From contig JAJQDP010000033.1 of NCBI GenBank assembly GCA_021202155.1, forward strand, positions 1 through 64,000: 64,000 bases of DNA, given 5' to 3'. Every line of letters starts with the position of its first letter. The first letter of the stretch is position 1. Of the stretch, positions 668-13,033 are shown one piece after another. Position numbers and translations under genes: made by a program. The notes under the pieces are model-generated. The model saw nothing but the letters and a program-made list of their open reading frames with translations. It was not told the origin of the DNA and did not search any database. Source of the stretch: Oscillospiraceae bacterium. Its GTDB lineage: Bacteria; Bacillota; Clostridia; Oscillospirales; Ruminococcaceae.

Positions 668-696
668 TTGACAAGTTGGACGAGGGGGTTTATAAT
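668..696 (+). promoter_or_regulatory. Sigma-A type promoter of adhesin cassette A (TTGACA-17-TATAAT) inside nested inverted repeats
   Basis: TTGACA 668-673, TATAAT 691-696, 17-bp spacer; ACTTGACAAGT palindrome 666-676; CCCCCT(652-657)/AGGGGG(683-688). Confidence 0.85.
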
Positions 697-700
697 TGTA

Positions 701-901
701 GTACCATGTGGTGGAAGGGCAGTTGAAGCTTAACCACATGAACCATTGCGGGGGGGGTACACGTTCCCCGGCGCGGAATTTTTTCGAGCCTTTTCTGGAA
801 ATTGTACCCATACCAAACCTCCGACACTATTAATAAAGTGCAACGGAGGCATTTTTGTCTACATTTTGTCCTCCTTTGTGCGAAACTAAGGAGGAATTTT
901 T
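701..901 (+). promoter_or_regulatory. Structured 5' leader (riboswitch-like) of adhesin A
   Basis: Stem CATGTGGT 705-712/ACCACATG 733-740; GGGTAC 755-760/GTACCC 804-809; terminator-like CCTCCG 818-823/CGGAGG 844-849 + ATTTTTG; SD hairpin CCTCCTT 870-876/AAGGAGG 888-894. Homologous leader at 9787-9991. Confidence 0.7.
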
Positions 902-3900
902 ATGGCGAAACGCATTATGTGCATCATAATAAGCGTTTTAATGATCGTCTCACTCCTTCCAACCGGCGCGTTTGCGGACAGCGGTGATGATACGGGTGGT
1001 ATCGTCGAAGTCACCGCTTCATCGTCAGGCGACGCCGACTCTGGCGAGACGACGGATGAGGACAGCTCATCAGAATCTGACGGGGAGGAGGTAGTTGAAG
1101 AATTCACGGTAGAAGGAGAAACCGTGTCTGTTGAGGCGGCGTTGACTGGTACAGAAGATTCTGTTGCTTCTATCGGTGACACTACATATGCAACGCTTGC
1201 GGCGGCTGTTGCGGGAGTTTCAACTGATGGCACTCAGACGACAATTACTCTGACGGCTGATACTACAGAATCAGCCAGCATAACCGTTGCAAGCAGTCAG
1301 AACATCGTGCTTGACTTGAACGGCAAGACGGTTGATATGAATAGTCACAATCTGTTCGTAGAGGGAACATTGACGATTCAGGACAGCACAGCTTCAACTT
1401 CTGGACCGACTGTTAATAGTGATTACTCTGTAACCTATACCTCAGGTAAGATTACTTCTACGGTTACTACTGTTTATGTCAGAAAAGGCGGTACTGCTAC
1501 TCTTGCGAGCGGTACGGTAGAATCAACCACGAATATTGCTTTCTCTGCTGAGGGTGATACAACCGGTACAACATCTATTGTTTCTACAGTTAATGTAACC
1601 GGAGGATATGCTGTTTCGGTAGAAGGTGCAATTTTAGTTAAGGGAAAAGGTGCAACGGCAAATATTTCTGGCGGCGTTTTGACCGCTAGTGATAACGCAG
1701 TTGTTGCTGGTAACGGTACTAATAGCGGTACAACCAACTATGGTGGCACCTCAATCACCATCTCCGGTGGTACTTTGATTGGACATATCACGACTTCCGG
1801 TTACGTTGCCTGCGGTATTTACCATCCGCAGAGCGGTACGCTTACTATCTCCGGCGGTACAATCTATGCTGATGGCGGTTGCGGCATCCTCATGCGTGGC
1901 GGTACGCTCACCATGACCGGTGGCACGATTATTGCAACTGGTGACAGCACTACAACCGGTAAAGTCGGCGATTCACGTGTTGTTGTTTCGGATTCAGGTA
2001 TTGTTTACGACTATGACAGCGGCTACTACGATGTAGCTAACGTATCTGTAAGTCTTTCCGGTTCGGTTTCAGTAACTGCCGCGGCAAGCGCGATTTCGGT
2101 TGTAGATACAAGTGGTTCAGCAAGTTCAACTGCGGTTACTGTTTCCGGCGGTACATATACGAATTCTGATGGTAGTGCTGATACGAGCGTAAGCTCATAT
2201 GTTGCAGATGGTTTGACGGTTGATGAGAGCGGTGCTGTTGTAACTGACACAACCACCTACGTTGCCCAGATAGGTGATACAAAGTATGCAACACTGGGCG
2301 AAGCAGTCGCGGCTGTTCCTGTGGGAACTGATGCTGACAATCTCGGCACGGCAACAACAATCAAAATCCTCTGCGACATCGATGATGCTGAGGGCATAAG
2401 TGTTCCGAGCTATGTCGACCTGACGATTGACTTTGACGGACATACCTACATCCTCACCGGACCGGGTGCAGGTTCTACAAACACTCAGACCAATGGCTTC
2501 CAGCTTCTTAAGGATTCCACAATCGTAATGAAGAATGGTACTATCAAGATTGCTGAGGATGCGACCAGGATCTATCGTATCATTCAGAACTACTCAAATC
2601 TGACTCTTGAGGATATGCAGATTTATTCTCAGAATCAGCTTGGCGGAGAAGATTACTGCTTGAGTTTTAACTATGGTACGATTACTTTCAAGGGAAATAC
2701 AAGCATTCACTCATCATCAAGTTCAGTAATCGCATTTGATGTTTACTATTGGGCAAGTGCGTACGAAGCAGGTACTACTGTTGTGTTCGATTCAAGCTAT
2801 ACCGGAACTATTGACGGTGTTATCTTGTACGATACAACCAATGCTGACAAAGCTCACTTAACCATAAATGGTAGTGGTACTTTCGTTGGCGGTATTTCAC
2901 TTTCTTCAAGTGCATCATCTCTTGAAGAAGTTGATATTTCCATCACCGGCGGTACTTTCGGAACTGATGTCAGCGAATACTGCACATCAACCACAACTGC
3001 ATTAGACCTTGATGGAGATGGCACTTACACCGTCGTCACATGCTGGGATGTTTCCAAAAATAGCGATGGTTCTGTAAAGGCATATGCTACAGTTGAAAGC
3101 GACGGCTATGTAACTCTGCACATCATCGGCACAGGTGCTATGAAGGATTACGACGCGGCTTCTGACAGACCTTGGCACGCTGACTTCACTACAGTCAACG
3201 GCGGAACAACTACTTACAGTAAGGAATCCGTAACTGCAGTAGAGATTGAGGACGGCGTCACCAAGATTGGTGCATACGCATTCTCAAGCTTGATGATAAG
3301 CTATGCTATAATTCCTGAGTCTGTAACGACTATTTCAGCTAACGCATTCAGTGCGGCAAGACCCGGAACTGGCGATGACGGCACTTATCTTCCTGTTATT
3401 GTCTACATGGTCGGCGACACTGAATATACTCCTAATTCAACCACGAGTGAGGGCAATGTTATCTTAGCTTACCTGAACGGTGGCTCACTTGACGAGTCGA
3501 CGATTGACGGCGGAGATGGTAACACTAATCTTGCAACTCCTACTAAGGAGGGAGACACCTTCGGTGGCTGGTATCGCAACAGTTCATTCAGCGGTACTGC
3601 TTATACTACCGGTGAAAAGGGCAAGGTCTACTATGCTAAGTGGACAAATGAGAGCTCTTGGGATGTCTCCGAAGACGGAGATGGCTCGGTTCTCGCATAT
3701 GTCTCACTTAATGAAGATGGAACAGTAACTCTTCACATCACCGGTACAGGTGCTATGAAGGACTTCACAAGTAACGATGAACGTCCTTGGCACTCAGGCT
3801 TCACGGTCAGTGGTGCATCTGGAACATTCGCTAAGGAGTCCATCACCAACATCGTGATTGAAGACGGCGTCACCCACATCGGCGCATTAGCCTTCTGCAG

Positions 3901-6412
3901 TACAAAGGTCTCATCCGTTGTAATCCCTGCCTCCGTCGAGTCAATCGGCGAGAACGCTTTCGCGTGGGTCAAGGGCTACACAGATGATAACACCAACTAT
4001 CTCACGATAGTTTACCTCGAAGGCGACACCGACTGGACTCTCAGCTCCGGCGAGACCGCCTACGTCGCCCAGGCATACCTGAACGGCACGTCGCTTCCAG
4101 ACACCATGACAGGTACTCCAACTCTTGAGGAAACCACCCTGACCGGCTACACCGTCATGGGCTGGTACACCGACAGCTCAGCTTCTGGCACAGCAGTCAC
4201 CACTGCCGAAGCCGGCAAGACCTACTACGCCTGCATAGCAGTTGCAAGTATCGGAGATACCTACTACGCAACCCTTGAGAGCGCAGTCTCCGCGGCGAAT
4301 GAGGCAACCGACGGTGCAACCGTAACCCTTCTCGCCGACATCACCCTCGACGCTCAGATCGTAATCACTGGTACAGTAACCCTTGACTTGAACAGCCACA
4401 GTGTAACTCGTAACACCGAGACCAACACTACAGCCGGCTTGATTCTTGTCAGCAGTGGCACGTTCACTGTTCAGGATACAAGCAGTGATGCAAGTGGATA
4501 TATCGACGGCGCAACATATACGCTTAACGGCAGTACATATGTCGGCTATGGCATCTACATAACTGGTGGTACGGTTAACGTTAAGAGCGGCACTGTTGCA
4601 GGCTACCGTGCAATCTATGGTTCTGCTGGTACTCTTAACGTATCTGGCGGTACAGTTTCTGGTACTCAGATTGGTATCATGGATGGAGGCTCGCTTAGTG
4701 TCAATATCAGTGGCGGAACTGTAACAGCAACACATTCTTGTGTTTACATGAATGGCGGCACTGTTAAAGTAACTGGTGGCACTATTGGTGGTACGTCCAC
4801 ATCATACGGTGTTAACGTACAGGCTGGTACAGCCGAAATCAGTAGTGGTACCATCGAAGGCTCTACGGCTGGTGTTATAGCTACTGGTGGTTCCAGTGTC
4901 ACGATTGGAACTGAGAGTTCAACTACTGGACCTAATATTACAGGTGGCTATGAAGCGGTTGAAATTAACACGCAAGCAACTGCTACAACACCGTCAATTG
5001 TAAAGGTATACAGCGGCACTCTCTCCGGCACATCCTATGGTATTTGCATCTATGGCAAGAATTCCAGCACTGATTGCTATAGCCAGTTGTACGTCTACGG
5101 TGGAACAATCTCTGCTACTACATACTTTGGCATCACTGGCAACGGTTCAACCGGTCAGGGATATACTACAATCTATATCTACGGTGGCACTATAACCAGT
5201 ACAAATGGGCAGGCAATCTATCATCCTCAGCAGAATGGCACGTTGTATGTCTATGGCGGAACAATCAAGGGCGACACCGGTATCGAAGTCAGAGGTGGTA
5301 CGGTCATTATTGAAGATATGACCGAAGATGGTTCTTTGACTATCGAAGCGACTGGAACACCTACCACATCCGACCCGAACTACAGTGGTTCAACCACATC
5401 CGGCGCGGCTGTTGCAATTGCTCCTTACAACCTGAGCAACATCAGTGTAAGCATCGTTAGCGGTACTCTTACTGGTGAAACTGCAGTTGCAGTAGTAAAC
5501 CCGAACAGCGTTACAGATTGGAATTACACTACTTCTGTGGAAATTTCCGGTGGTACGTTGACCGGTGCAATTACCGAAGAAATTGAAGATGTTCTTCAGA
5601 TCTCCGGCGGCACCTACTCAACAGAGGTCAACCCCGAGTACTGCGCAGACGGTTACACACCGACAGCGACAACGGATGAAGAGACTCAGACAACTACCTA
5701 CGGAGTTACAGAGTTCTCTCTCGGAATCTACGGTTCTGAATCTACGGTCAAGGCAACCATCGTCTCTGGCGAAGGCACGAACACGATGTACGTAAAGGTT
5801 TCCTCTGCGAACATCAGTAACTACACAACTGAGAAGTATCCGACGACATCAGTAACCTACACGCCAACCGAAACAGTTGACAGCGGCAGTTACGTCTTCG
5901 CCGGCTGGTACAGCGCATCGACTACAACGGATGAGGATGGCAATACAGTAACAAATTATACTGCCCTGTCTGAATTCCCGGAGGATACCACCGCCTACGC
6001 CAAGTTCGTAGATGCGAATGTGTTGACTGTGAGGGCACAAGTTCCGACAGATGCTGGCTCATCTACAACGACCAGTATGAGGCTGATTAGTACAGTTGAT
6101 TCGGCAAACTACAAGAGTGTTGGATTTGAAGTCTATATTGGTTCAAATACCACAAAGATTTCTGCAATTTCAAGTACTGTATATTCAACTATCACTGCAC
6201 TTGGCTCTGAGTACAAACCTACGGAGTTCAGTAGTTCTTCGCTGTACTTCTTTACTTGCACGTTGAAAAATATTCCATCCTCAGGATATGACACTACTAT
6301 TAAGGTCACCCCGGTTTGGACTACATTAGATAGTACAACGGTGTATGGTACAACAAGAGAGTTCACGGTCAACGAGATACTTTCGAGCTATAGTACAGGT
6401 AGTGATAGCTGA
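902..6412 (+). CDS. Large secreted surface protein/adhesin A: signal peptide, parallel beta-helix (SGGT) repeats, BspA-like LRR segments, InlB_B (Listeria-Bacteroides) repeats, conserved C-terminal domain
   Basis: 1836 aa ORF; N-term MAKRIMCIIISVLMIVSLLPTGAFA; many xISGGTxx repeats; VEIEDGVTKIGAYAF LRR_5-like; GGWYRNSSFSGTAYTTGEKGKVYYAKW; SD AAGGAGG. Confidence 0.9.
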   Translation: MAKRIMCIIISVLMIVSLLPTGAFADSGDDTGGIVEVTASSSGDADSGETTDEDSSSESDGEEVVEEFTVEGETVSVEAALTGTEDSVASIGDTTYATLAAAVAGVSTDGTQTTITLTADTTESASITVASSQNIVLDLNGKTVDMNSHNLFVEGTLTIQDSTASTSGPTVNSDYSVTYTSGKITSTVTTVYVRKGGTATLASGTVESTTNIAFSAEGDTTGTTSIVSTVNVTGGYAVSVEGAILVKGKGATANISGGVLTASDNAVVAGNGTNSGTTNYGGTSITISGGTLIGHITTSGYVACGIYHPQSGTLTISGGTIYADGGCGILMRGGTLTMTGGTIIATGDSTTTGKVGDSRVVVSDSGIVYDYDSGYYDVANVSVSLSGSVSVTAAASAISVVDTSGSASSTAVTVSGGTYTNSDGSADTSVSSYVADGLTVDESGAVVTDTTTYVAQIGDTKYATLGEAVAAVPVGTDADNLGTATTIKILCDIDDAEGISVPSYVDLTIDFDGHTYILTGPGAGSTNTQTNGFQLLKDSTIVMKNGTIKIAEDATRIYRIIQNYSNLTLEDMQIYSQNQLGGEDYCLSFNYGTITFKGNTSIHSSSSSVIAFDVYYWASAYEAGTTVVFDSSYTGTIDGVILYDTTNADKAHLTINGSGTFVGGISLSSSASSLEEVDISITGGTFGTDVSEYCTSTTTALDLDGDGTYTVVTCWDVSKNSDGSVKAYATVESDGYVTLHIIGTGAMKDYDAASDRPWHADFTTVNGGTTTYSKESVTAVEIEDGVTKIGAYAFSSLMISYAIIPESVTTISANAFSAARPGTGDDGTYLPVIVYMVGDTEYTPNSTTSEGNVILAYLNGGSLDESTIDGGDGNTNLATPTKEGDTFGGWYRNSSFSGTAYTTGEKGKVYYAKWTNESSWDVSEDGDGSVLAYVSLNEDGTVTLHITGTGAMKDFTSNDERPWHSGFTVSGASGTFAKESITNIVIEDGVTHIGALAFCSTKVSSVVIPASVESIGENAFAWVKGYTDDNTNYLTIVYLEGDTDWTLSSGETAYVAQAYLNGTSLPDTMTGTPTLEETTLTGYTVMGWYTDSSASGTAVTTAEAGKTYYACIAVASIGDTYYATLESAVSAANEATDGATVTLLADITLDAQIVITGTVTLDLNSHSVTRNTETNTTAGLILVSSGTFTVQDTSSDASGYIDGATYTLNGSTYVGYGIYITGGTVNVKSGTVAGYRAIYGSAGTLNVSGGTVSGTQIGIMDGGSLSVNISGGTVTATHSCVYMNGGTVKVTGGTIGGTSTSYGVNVQAGTAEISSGTIEGSTAGVIATGGSSVTIGTESSTTGPNITGGYEAVEINTQATATTPSIVKVYSGTLSGTSYGICIYGKNSSTDCYSQLYVYGGTISATTYFGITGNGSTGQGYTTIYIYGGTITSTNGQAIYHPQQNGTLYVYGGTIKGDTGIEVRGGTVIIEDMTEDGSLTIEATGTPTTSDPNYSGSTTSGAAVAIAPYNLSNISVSIVSGTLTGETAVAVVNPNSVTDWNYTTSVEISGGTLTGAITEEIEDVLQISGGTYSTEVNPEYCADGYTPTATTDEETQTTTYGVTEFSLGIYGSESTVKATIVSGEGTNTMYVKVSSANISNYTTEKYPTTSVTYTPTETVDSGSYVFAGWYSASTTTDEDGNTVTNYTALSEFPEDTTAYAKFVDANVLTVRAQVPTDAGSSTTTSMRLISTVDSANYKSVGFEVYIGSNTTKISAISSTVYSTITALGSEYKPTEFSSSSLYFFTCTLKNIPSSGYDTTIKVTPVWTTLDSTTVYGTTREFTVNEILSSYSTGSDS

Positions 6413-9757: not shown

Positions 9758-9786
9758 TTGACAAGTTGCTCATGGGGGTCTATAAT
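9758..9786 (+). promoter_or_regulatory. Sigma-A type promoter of adhesin cassette B (TTGACA-17-TATAAT) inside nested inverted repeats
   Basis: TTGACA 9758-9763, TATAAT 9781-9786; ACTTGACAAGT 9756-9766; CCCCCATG 9742-9749/CATGGGGG 9771-9778. Confidence 0.85.
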
Positions 9787-9991
9787 AGAAGCATGTGGTG
9801 GAAGGGCAAATAACAGCTTAACCACATGAATCATTGCGGGGGGGTACACGTTTTCCGTAGCTCGGAATTTTTTCCGAGTTTCGCAGAAACTCGTACCCAT
9901 ACCAAACCTCCGACACTAATTATTAAAAAGTGCATCGGGGGATTTTTGTATCTATATTTTCCTCCGAAGTACAACTAAGGAGGAATTTTTT
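9787..9991 (+). promoter_or_regulatory. Structured 5' leader (riboswitch-like) of adhesin B
   Basis: CATGTGGT 9792-9799/ACCACATG 9821-9828; GGGTAC 9842-9847/GTACCC 9893-9898; CCTCCGA 9907-9913/TCGGGGG 9935-9941 + ATTTTTG; CCTCC 9961-9965/GGAGG 9979-9983. Confidence 0.7.
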
Positions 9992-12900
9992 ATGGCAAAA
10001 CGCCTTATGTGCATCATAATAAGCGTTTTAATGATCGTCTCACTCCTTCCCACTGCCGCGTTTGCGACCGATGAATCCGGGGACTCCAACCCCGTCGTAG
10101 AGTCGACCGCCGATGCGGATGAGGGCGATGCAGAAGAAAGTGGGGAAACTGAAGAAGTAGTGGAAGCTGAGGCAGAAGAAGCCGCCGAAGCCACAGAAGA
10201 GACCACCGTCTCCGCCGCCGCTCAGGCAGTTCAGTCCATGATAGACGCCCTGCCGACCGTGGATGAAGTAGCGGCAATGGACACTGACGGACAGAATGAG
10301 GTTTACACCGCCTTCCTCGAAGCTTGTGAAGCTTACGATGCTTTGAGTGAAGAGGATCAAGCCACAGTAGACGATTCCGCCCTTGATACTTTGTCTGATT
10401 ACTTCAACGGAATGGTTTCAACAACTGCTACTATTCCGACTTCTGGAGCACTCACAACCGGTACATATACGTTGACCGGAAATGTTACTCTTACAGGTGC
10501 ATTGACTGTAGCCAGTGGGCAGACAGTTGTTATAGATCTTGCAGGGTATACTATCAGTTATTCGGGGTCTTCTGTCACCCTTTTAATATCTAATACTGGA
10601 ACGCTAACGATTATGGACAGTAGTGAAGCTGGTGCAGGTAAAATTTCGTTTACTTATACAGGTAGCTCATCTGCATACGTGATTAGGACTTCTAATGGAG
10701 GCACTCTTACGGTTGAGTCCGGTGGAATTGAAATTAGCAGTACTAACGGAACAGTTGCTACTATTAATGCGACGTCAAGTTCTTCATCCACGCAAACAAT
10801 AACAATCAATGATGGAACTATCAGCTCAACGAGTAGTGCAGGAAATGCCTATGGAATATATGGACAAGCGAGTAAAGATAAAATTACTGTTAATGATGGA
10901 ACTATCACTGCAACAAGCACATCTGGAAATGCATACGGCGTTTACTCTTCCGCAAGCAATGTTCTGGTCTATACTGCAATATATGGAGGTAGTATAACAG
11001 CAACGGGTGGTGTTGACTCGTATGGAGTTTATGTCAGTGACAATAGCGCAAAAGTTTATGGAGGCAGTATCTCTGCAAATGGAGCTGGAAGCGTGTATGG
11101 AGTGTATGCAAAATATACTACGGTTTCTGACGGAACGATCACAGCATCTGGCGATGGAACAACTTATGGAGTCTATGGTAGCTCATCAGTAACTATTACT
11201 GATGGAACTATATCTTCAAGCACAACAGATAGCAACTCAACAGCTTATGTAGCCAATAAGGCAACAATTTCTGATGGAAACTTTACTGGAACTTTGTATG
11301 AAGGAACTACTGTAACAGGTGGAACGTTTAGCTATGATGTATCTGATTTTGTCAATACAGATACATATCAGGTTAAAAGCAATGGTGATGGAACGTATAC
11401 AGTCAGCGTGAAGAACAGTGAAGAAAATGGTGCAACTGAGCAAAGTGAAAACCATGTTGCTTCAGTTACAAGTAAGTCTGACAGTAGCGACATAAAATAC
11501 TACATTTCGCTTCAGGATGCAATCGATGCCGCTTCTGAAAATGATACGGTTTCGTTACTGGTGGATGTCTCTGAAAACGTTACAGTAGCGGAAAGTCAAA
11601 GTATCACTCTTGATCTTTGTGGATTTACACTGACCACGGAAGATTCTACTGCGAATGTTTCTATCATTTATGTCTACGGTACAATGACCTTAAAGGATAG
11701 TAGTGAAGATCAGACAGGAAAAATAACCGGATCGGGTGCTGAGATACCCAGTACAACTAACAAATTATATGGTGGTGGTATTCGTGTCAAAGGTACTGTA
11801 ACCATGGAAAGTGGCTCGATAACCGGTAACGGAAAGTTAGGAAACTATGTTAGTGGTGCAGGCGTTTATGTTGATGATGGTGGAACATTCACTATGAATG
11901 GCGGAAGCATTAGCGACAACCTCGGAGATTGGGGTGGAGGCGTATATGTCACTTCTGGTGGAACGTTTACCATGAACGATGGTGAAATTTCTGGAAACAC
12001 TATTCAGAACTGGGGTGGCGGTGTTGTTTTATATGGCAATTGCACCTTTACCATGAATGGAGGAACAATTACCGGCAATAAAGGAGTTTATGGCGGAGGT
12101 ATCTATTTACACGGTAGTTCTGATGTTGGCTATCCAACATTTGTAATGACAAAAGGTGCAATCTACAACAATACCGCTACAACTGAAGGTGCTGATATAT
12201 ACTCTACTGGCAGTAGTTCTGTAACTTTGATAGCTGCGAGTGAAATGACAGATGGCACTAAAGACTTTACTGGCTATTGTTGGTATACTGATGCAAGTGG
12301 AAACAGATATGATGCAGAGACGAATGTCACAGATACAGTTGATGTTTCGGAGACATTAACAGGTGCGTACTCACTAATCGCCTCAAAGCCATATACCTTC
12401 ACCCTCGGCATCAGCACTGACTCCACAACCACCGTCCCCGCAGAAATAGCCTCCGGCGAAGGCACAGCTACAATGTACGTCAAAGTAACTTCCGAGAACA
12501 TCGGTAGCTACACAAATGCCGCTTATCCTACAACATCTCTCACATTCGGTGACAATAATACCGGCTATGTATTCGCAGGCTGGTACGAAGACAGCGAGGG
12601 GACAACGACTTGCACAAGTGTTCCGTCAACCGATGCTTATGCCAAATTTGTTGACGAGAATGTCTTAGATGTATGGGTTCAGACCACATCAGGCACATCA
12701 AGCGCATCAGAAAAAACCGATATGAGGCTTGTGAGCACAGTTGATACTCTGCGTTATGCCTGTGTAGGATTTGAAATTACAATCACCCAGTCTACTAAAA
12801 CCTCGACCACAAGTGTATATAAGCAACTCGTAGGTTCTAGTGGAGAGACTGTTTTTAATTATAGTCCAGAGGATATTTGTAGCATTTCAACCTACTTCAT

Positions 12901-13033
12901 GACATATACCATATTCAACATTCCTAATAGTAGCTTTGACACACAAATGACGATCAGAGCTTACTGGACAACTAATGATGGCACTACTGTGTATGGTACT
13001 GCAAGAGTAGTGAGTGTCAACGACGTAATGTAA
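9992..13033 (+). CDS. Large secreted surface protein/adhesin B (paralog of adhesin A)
   Basis: 1013 aa; near-identical signal peptide MAKRLMCIIISVLMIVSLLPTAAFA; NDGTI/MNGGTI beta-helix repeats; C-term MRLVSTVD...VGFEI...YWTTNDGTTVYGTARVVSVND as in adhesin A. Confidence 0.9.
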   Translation: MAKRLMCIIISVLMIVSLLPTAAFATDESGDSNPVVESTADADEGDAEESGETEEVVEAEAEEAAEATEETTVSAAAQAVQSMIDALPTVDEVAAMDTDGQNEVYTAFLEACEAYDALSEEDQATVDDSALDTLSDYFNGMVSTTATIPTSGALTTGTYTLTGNVTLTGALTVASGQTVVIDLAGYTISYSGSSVTLLISNTGTLTIMDSSEAGAGKISFTYTGSSSAYVIRTSNGGTLTVESGGIEISSTNGTVATINATSSSSSTQTITINDGTISSTSSAGNAYGIYGQASKDKITVNDGTITATSTSGNAYGVYSSASNVLVYTAIYGGSITATGGVDSYGVYVSDNSAKVYGGSISANGAGSVYGVYAKYTTVSDGTITASGDGTTYGVYGSSSVTITDGTISSSTTDSNSTAYVANKATISDGNFTGTLYEGTTVTGGTFSYDVSDFVNTDTYQVKSNGDGTYTVSVKNSEENGATEQSENHVASVTSKSDSSDIKYYISLQDAIDAASENDTVSLLVDVSENVTVAESQSITLDLCGFTLTTEDSTANVSIIYVYGTMTLKDSSEDQTGKITGSGAEIPSTTNKLYGGGIRVKGTVTMESGSITGNGKLGNYVSGAGVYVDDGGTFTMNGGSISDNLGDWGGGVYVTSGGTFTMNDGEISGNTIQNWGGGVVLYGNCTFTMNGGTITGNKGVYGGGIYLHGSSDVGYPTFVMTKGAIYNNTATTEGADIYSTGSSSVTLIAASEMTDGTKDFTGYCWYTDASGNRYDAETNVTDTVDVSETLTGAYSLIASKPYTFTLGISTDSTTTVPAEIASGEGTATMYVKVTSENIGSYTNAAYPTTSLTFGDNNTGYVFAGWYEDSEGTTTCTSVPSTDAYAKFVDENVLDVWVQTTSGTSSASEKTDMRLVSTVDTLRYACVGFEITITQSTKTSTTSVYKQLVGSSGETVFNYSPEDICSISTYFMTYTIFNIPNSSFDTQMTIRAYWTTNDGTTVYGTARVVSVNDVM

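Follow-up and report, generated by a model that had tools for sequence, protein, structure and literature searches.

Within the 64,000-nucleotide stretch of Oscillospiraceae DNA analysed here (the window), two similar leaders each stand immediately before the open reading frame (ORF) of a giant surface protein that starts with a signal peptide. The locus raises the question of what these leaders do and how widely the same arrangement is used. Sequence comparison indicates that they belong to a leader family that is a real, undescribed class of attenuator type, all from one clade of uncultured gut bacteria.

Two leaders in the window and their relatives

Leader B (9787-9991) aligns end to end with leader A (697-901), and the likeness extends past the leader into the promoter and the signal-peptide codons. 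Against shuffled sequences, folding is clearly stronger than chance in both, with z = -5.7 in B and -3.0 in A. The original prediction had described B as a second copy of a leader that has a terminator and a Shine-Dalgarno (SD) hairpin. A conserved, folded regulatory leader with these two parts is strongly supported: an exact-position check recovered all the motifs that it had named in B, and the same elements are common to copy A (Table 1). Missing from its list were the promoter and the G-tract, which is complementary to a terminator arm, CCTCCG. The first terminator stem differs between the copies as described (A.A to A-U, and U-A to U.G), but a gained pair and a wobble are compatible with stem conservation and do not amount to the compensatory double changes that had been claimed. 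Such changes are real, but they are seen in the wider family and not in the A/B pair. For the SD hairpin of B, a shrinkage to 5 bp had been proposed; it has 7 bp (TTCCTCC/GGAGGAA), against 8 bp in A.

Table 1. Positions of leader features and following ORFs in the window
Feature	Positions	Strand	Details
Promoter, copy A	668..696	+	TTGACA 668-673, 17 nt, TATAAT 691-696
P1 hairpin, copy A	705..740	+	arms 705/733
G-tract, copy A	750..757	+	8 G
P2 hairpin, copy A	755..809	+	base arms 755/804
T1, copy A	818..855	+	CCTCCG 818 ... CGGAGG 845, plus T run
T2, copy A	869..895	+	TCCTCCTT/AAGGAGGA, SD inside; CCTCC 870, GGAGG 890
ORF after leader A	902..6412	+	1836 aa, signal peptide, BspA-type LRR_5 + List_Bact_rpt
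Promoter, copy B, sigma-70-type	9758..9786	+	TTGACA (-35) 9758-9763, 17-nt spacer, TATAAT (-10) 9781-9786; conserved A vs B
P1 hairpin, copy B	9792..9828	+	CATGTGGT 9792 / ACCACATG 9821 plus inner stem
G-tract, copy B	9838..9844	+	7 G, C 9837 before; proposed antiterminator strand (segment 0)
P2 hairpin, copy B	9842..9898	+	base GGGTAC 9842 / GTACCC 9893
T1, copy B	9907..9947	+	CCTCCGA-CACT ... AGTG-CA-TCGGGGG (TCGGGGG 9935), then T run; intrinsic-terminator-like
T2, copy B	9959..9985	+	TTCCTCC/GGAGGAA, CCTCC 9961, SD GGAGG 9979-9983 inside, T run after
ORF after leader B	9992..13033	+	1013 aa, signal peptide

The term 'second copy' was an understatement, as the genome holds about 20. With the leader as query, 14 matching stretches at about 11 places were found in its own genome. 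Searches with a covariance model built from 28 leaders (R1) and a broader one built from 82 (R2) located the leader in one Oscillospiraceae genus, where 11 of 31 genomes carry it. The present genome gave 21 matches, of which at least one (L239) is false; three others (G001, G002 and G029) gave 16 each, and G006 and G030 had the fewest, with three to four. After removal of duplicates and false matches, 111 distinct leaders were parsed. Among the GTDB species genomes, the records that have names are MAGs of Oscillospiraceae or 'Ruminococcus sp.'.

When about 400 genomes of the family and as many of the order were searched, with stricter filters that may miss distant members, only single weak matches lay outside the genus; these are considered false, those inspected having neither a G-tract nor CCTCC. 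No family of Rfam 15, T-box and c-di-GMP riboswitches among them, matched at gathering score, or at E<=10 when the leader was scanned by itself; the scan otherwise gave one tRNA in another part of the window and, on the leaders, chance matches below threshold. A literature search found no description of the leader.

Positions 697-1040 of the window (leader A with promoter and ORF start) are identical to positions 1501-1850 of another contig (L009), and the sequence 5' of the promoter differs between the two loci. Because the identity stops upstream of the promoter, promoter, leader and signal peptide seem to move as one cassette.

Leader anatomy and competing pairings

Comparison and computation establish the promoter, P1, P2, T1, T2 and the U tails as parts of the leader, together with a covariation between the G-tract and the 5' arm of T1. 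The order is sigma-70 promoter, P1, a near-invariant YGGGGGG(G)UA, P2, T1, T2 and gene. A promoter-like score of at least 10/12 was obtained for 79% of 117 upstream regions, compared with 3% of shuffled ones, and in these regions the G-tract follows the -10 box at a median of 51 nt. P1 is free to vary in sequence while its pairing is kept, with two-sided changes in all 11 pairs. Over P1, P2 and T1, such changes occur in 17 of 27 pairs, counted on an alignment that was fitted to the model, and the covariation score is 0.284, against 0.131 for shuffled and at most 0.061 for slid controls. The base of P2 is GGGUA with UACCC, its apex may be a small UUC/UUCG-type loop, a long arm or something in between, and the linker before T1 is short, usually ending in AA. 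T1 reads CCUCCG-ACAC/GUGC-CGGRGG and has a U tail in 105 of the 111 leaders; T2 has one in 95, and its 3' arm is usually GGAGG, the SD, before the start codon. Comparative support for this structure is strong.

Two variants depart from this plan. In L136, L142, L158, L165 and L218, T2 is a plain terminator with the gene further downstream, and L225, L229 and L237 are without T2, the 3' arm of T1 itself being the SD. A second terminator-like hairpin after the leader was observed in eight cases (L136, L141, L142, L143, L146, L158, L161 and L165), in which the next ORF is at least about 100 nt away or was not found, and signalling, secretion and exopolysaccharide-like genes lie downstream.

The P2 apex of copy B (9848-9892) is variable and holds two overlapping stems, CTCGGAA/TTCCGAG (9861-9878) and GAGTTTC/GAAACTC (9876-9892), which had been offered as a possible alternative fold. 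Their overlap in GAG is confirmed. The second fold, however, is less stable by 6.9 kcal/mol, its computed probability is about zero, and the alternative is not conserved: the apex is the most variable part of the leader, and about 51 of 82 copies lack it. What comparison supports instead is another, putative mutually exclusive pairing, between the G-tract at 9838-9844 and CCTCCG at 9907-9912. Although the apex otherwise varies, a pyrimidine patch at offsets +6 to +9 after the G-tract (9851-9854 in copy B) is conserved, with a pyrimidine at offset +8 in 108 of 111 leaders. A local anti-antiterminator formed by the G-tract and pyrimidines of the apex was rejected, the pairing being no better than for shuffled tails.

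Across the 111 leaders, the positions just 5' of the G-tract and just 3' of CCTCC hold C:G in 64, U:G in 18 and U:A in 27; the remaining two are one A:G and one C:A that is a misparse, so that no true C:A occurs. The R1-fitted alignment, which was not fitted to the pairing between G-tract and T1, gave CG 50, UG 15, UA 10 and other 4. On a tree built without the two tested columns, the U:A state was reached about ten times independently, six times via U:G and four times as double changes. Only this one pair of the helix covaries because the rest of the helix is invariant. When transcripts that end 6 nt after CCUCC were folded by computation, CCUCC paired with the G-tract at a median P of 0.93; of 83 leaders, 71% had P>0.5 and the other 29% did not exceed it. 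In full leaders T1 forms in 99% of the 83. In any energy model, G-rich and C-rich stretches pair easily.

These results bear on a rival explanation, in which constitutive tandem leader terminators and the SD hairpin hold surface genes low, and the G-tract and P2 serve RNA stability or insulation. Constitutive terminators would agree with T1 being far more stable than the G-tract pairing in 99% of full leaders and with the U tails on both hairpins. However, the G-tract is kept in every subtype amid change around it, and its 5' base covaries with the T1 arm, which is needless for a plain terminator; we consider this explanation improbable.

A further competing pairing would join the 3' arm of T1 to the 5' arm of T2. 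For T2 of the CCTCC type its median energy is -10.9 kcal/mol, compared with -6.9 for permuted arms, and for other T2 types -8.5, compared with -5.3. Where T1 and T2 share CCTCC/GGAGG this pairing is automatic; of the 36 non-CCTCC arms, some wrongly delimited, just 36% reach p<0.05. A crude extraction of T2 arms gave no signal (own -6.8, others -6.4) because flanking bases were taken in, and a compact-hairpin definition of the arm replaced it, so that the T2 result follows one method change.

A candidate two-state attenuator and its target genes

The leaders combine a GC-rich, U-tailed hairpin before an ORF with a covarying, competing upstream pairing, the features of an intrinsic-terminator attenuator. 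Taking comparison and folding models together, we propose that the leader probably works in cis as a transcription attenuator of two states, with a lock on translation built in, and that it stands before a genome-wide set of surface and secretion genes. Its five segments would be YGGGG in the G-tract (0), CCUCCG in the 5' arm of T1 (1), CGGRGG in its 3' arm (2), CCUCC in the 5' arm of T2 (3) and GGAGG, the T2 3' arm with the SD (4). In the OFF state, segments 1 and 2 would pair as terminator T1 and stop transcription, and segments 3 and 4 as a second terminator-like hairpin in which the SD is hidden. In the ON state, pairing of 0 with 1 in the nascent RNA, beside P2, would block T1; segment 2, set free, would capture 3, and the SD in segment 4 would be unlocked. 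We infer from the covariation and the folding computations that the 0:1 helix may act as the physiological antiterminator, a role for which comparative support is moderate, and that the 2:3 pairing would form as computed. The balance between OFF and ON would presumably be set by a signal acting in trans.

A signal-like segment, called by a simple heuristic, is present at the start of 92 of 108 first genes. Pfam domains of the first genes include BspA LRR_5, List_Bact_rpt, Cna_B/SpaA, C-type lectin and lipase; the ORF after leader B has no Pfam domain at E<=0.001. Judged by their sequences, further operons appear to serve type VII-like secretion or exopolysaccharide synthesis, to encode dynamins, or to be peptide operons whose first product is small and Gly-rich. 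In leader-headed operons, Pfam supports FHA/DUF6382, PP2C, Sel1, YbjN and dynamin, and from our own reading of N-termini we take further products to be EssC-, YukD-, Wzz/CpsD- and PqqD-like. At four loci (L015 8855-9166, L117, L119 and L125) the leader precedes an operon that opens with a Gly-rich peptide of 39-60 aa, followed in L125 by a reading frame that reads as PqqD-like. The Gly-rich peptide operons are possible ribosomal-peptide clusters.

It is intriguing to extend the proposal to a genus-restricted switch class, absent from Rfam, in which one G-tract antiterminator would set off two terminators and an SD lock in domino fashion. It would so coordinate as many as about 20 operons per genome, for surface proteins, pili, exopolysaccharide, type VII-like secretion and peptides, in a clade without GGDEF-based c-di-GMP signalling. 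We give this wider proposal an even chance. If true, RNA would provide a global layer of control over the way in which an uncultured gut bacterium presents itself to its environment, a layer that is visible so far by comparison only. The 111 natural variants, a simple pairing scheme open to testing at each base, and sister lineages that lack leaders next to a clade that has them make both mechanism and trigger directly testable.

Known leader systems and candidate triggers

What might set the proposed attenuator? A new-class small-molecule riboswitch, with P1, G-tract and P2 as aptamer and T1/T2 as expression platform, would be in keeping with the same regulatory logic in many copies and with the conserved UA after the G-tract, the P2 pyrimidine patch and the AA before CCUCC. 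Yet P1 and the P2 apex are free to vary in sequence and shape, few unpaired bases are conserved, the distribution is very narrow, and the surface-gene regulon has no metabolic theme. We regard a riboswitch as somewhat unlikely, and because the sequences of P1 and of the P2 apex are not conserved, we think that a protein or an elongation-rate or pausing signal is a likelier trigger than a classic small-molecule aptamer.

Several known systems were compared with the leader. ANTAR-responsive leaders, which resemble it in having two hairpins before a terminator, require A-N-N-G-N-N hexaloops; these occur in 2 of 111 leaders and never twice in one, and ANTAR control was rejected. One ANTAR protein is encoded per genome, with or without leaders. 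Antitermination of the BglG/SacY (CAT) type was likewise rejected, a CAT_RBD protein being found in none of the 31 genomes with positive controls. For a Trp-type or other amino-acid leader peptide (ATG TGG TGG AAG GGC ...), no conserved short ORF with a ribosome site was found: the candidate frame, picked by eye, has no nearby stop in L004, L005 and L018 and no SD before it, and other leader subtypes are without its ATG.

A close counterpart of the G-tract is in pyrG of Bacillus subtilis, where Gs pair with the C/U-rich arm of the terminator. As is proposed for the present leaders, a G run there prevents attenuation at a leader terminator (Meng et al. 2004, cited in PMC4448216). In pyrG the extra Gs have no template and are added at the transcription start when pyrimidines are scarce, whereas the G-tract here is encoded about 50 nt inside the leader, between P1 and P2, surface genes are the targets, and a second hairpin and SD lock follow. 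Unlike the run of a reiterative attenuator of the pyrG type, the G run here does not lie at the start. Slippage, by RNA polymerase as in pyrG or at the DNA level as phase variation, could change the tract length and so tune the antiterminator. The tract has 5-9 G, its length differs in near-identical copies (L141/L143, L147/L156 and L169/L178), and a U directly follows it in 109 of 111 leaders. That U also serves as a base of P2, however, and the tract is far from the start site, which makes slippage a very improbable explanation.

The c-di-GMP riboswitches of Clostridia are multicopy leaders over adhesins, pili and surface proteins (PMC11477304); they resemble the present family in this multicopy control of surface genes and differ in that no Rfam sequence or structure match was found here. 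A c-di-GMP-controlled leader, as for adhesin genes of Clostridioides difficile, would have target genes of the same kind (PMC11477304), but GGDEF domains are found in 0 of 11 leader-bearing genomes, compared with 18 of 20 leader-less ones, and the leaders match no c-di-GMP riboswitch family, which leaves this explanation with hardly any probability. Across the 31 genomes, leader and GGDEF are near-completely anti-correlated, and G023 and G026 have neither.

The LoaP leaders of dfn and mln in Bacillus velezensis carry an RNA hairpin with a UNCG-type loop and an intrinsic terminator before a costly operon (PMC12691694). The leaders studied here share the hairpin and the intrinsic terminator, and many of their P2 apices contain CUUCGG or CUCCGG, but their P2 loops are not uniformly of UNCG type, being triloops in the folding model, and for LoaP leaders no switch between G-tract and terminator is described. 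LoaP was rejected, as a specialised NusG paralogue was not found and each genome has one NusG. Gene content thus disfavours c-di-GMP, CAT-type antiterminators and LoaP, and loop type disfavours ANTAR; these presence and absence patterns follow the clade split, so that they can exclude trigger candidates and cannot identify one.

The N-terminal domain of the single NusG in the leader-bearing genomes (L245-L255) contains an acidic insertion, a few residues long (for example EAPVEEEEGGRKRK), that may be clade history only and is not present in the leader-less sisters (L256-L264); the readable alignment rows agree on it, with G024 and G013 covered by match lengths.
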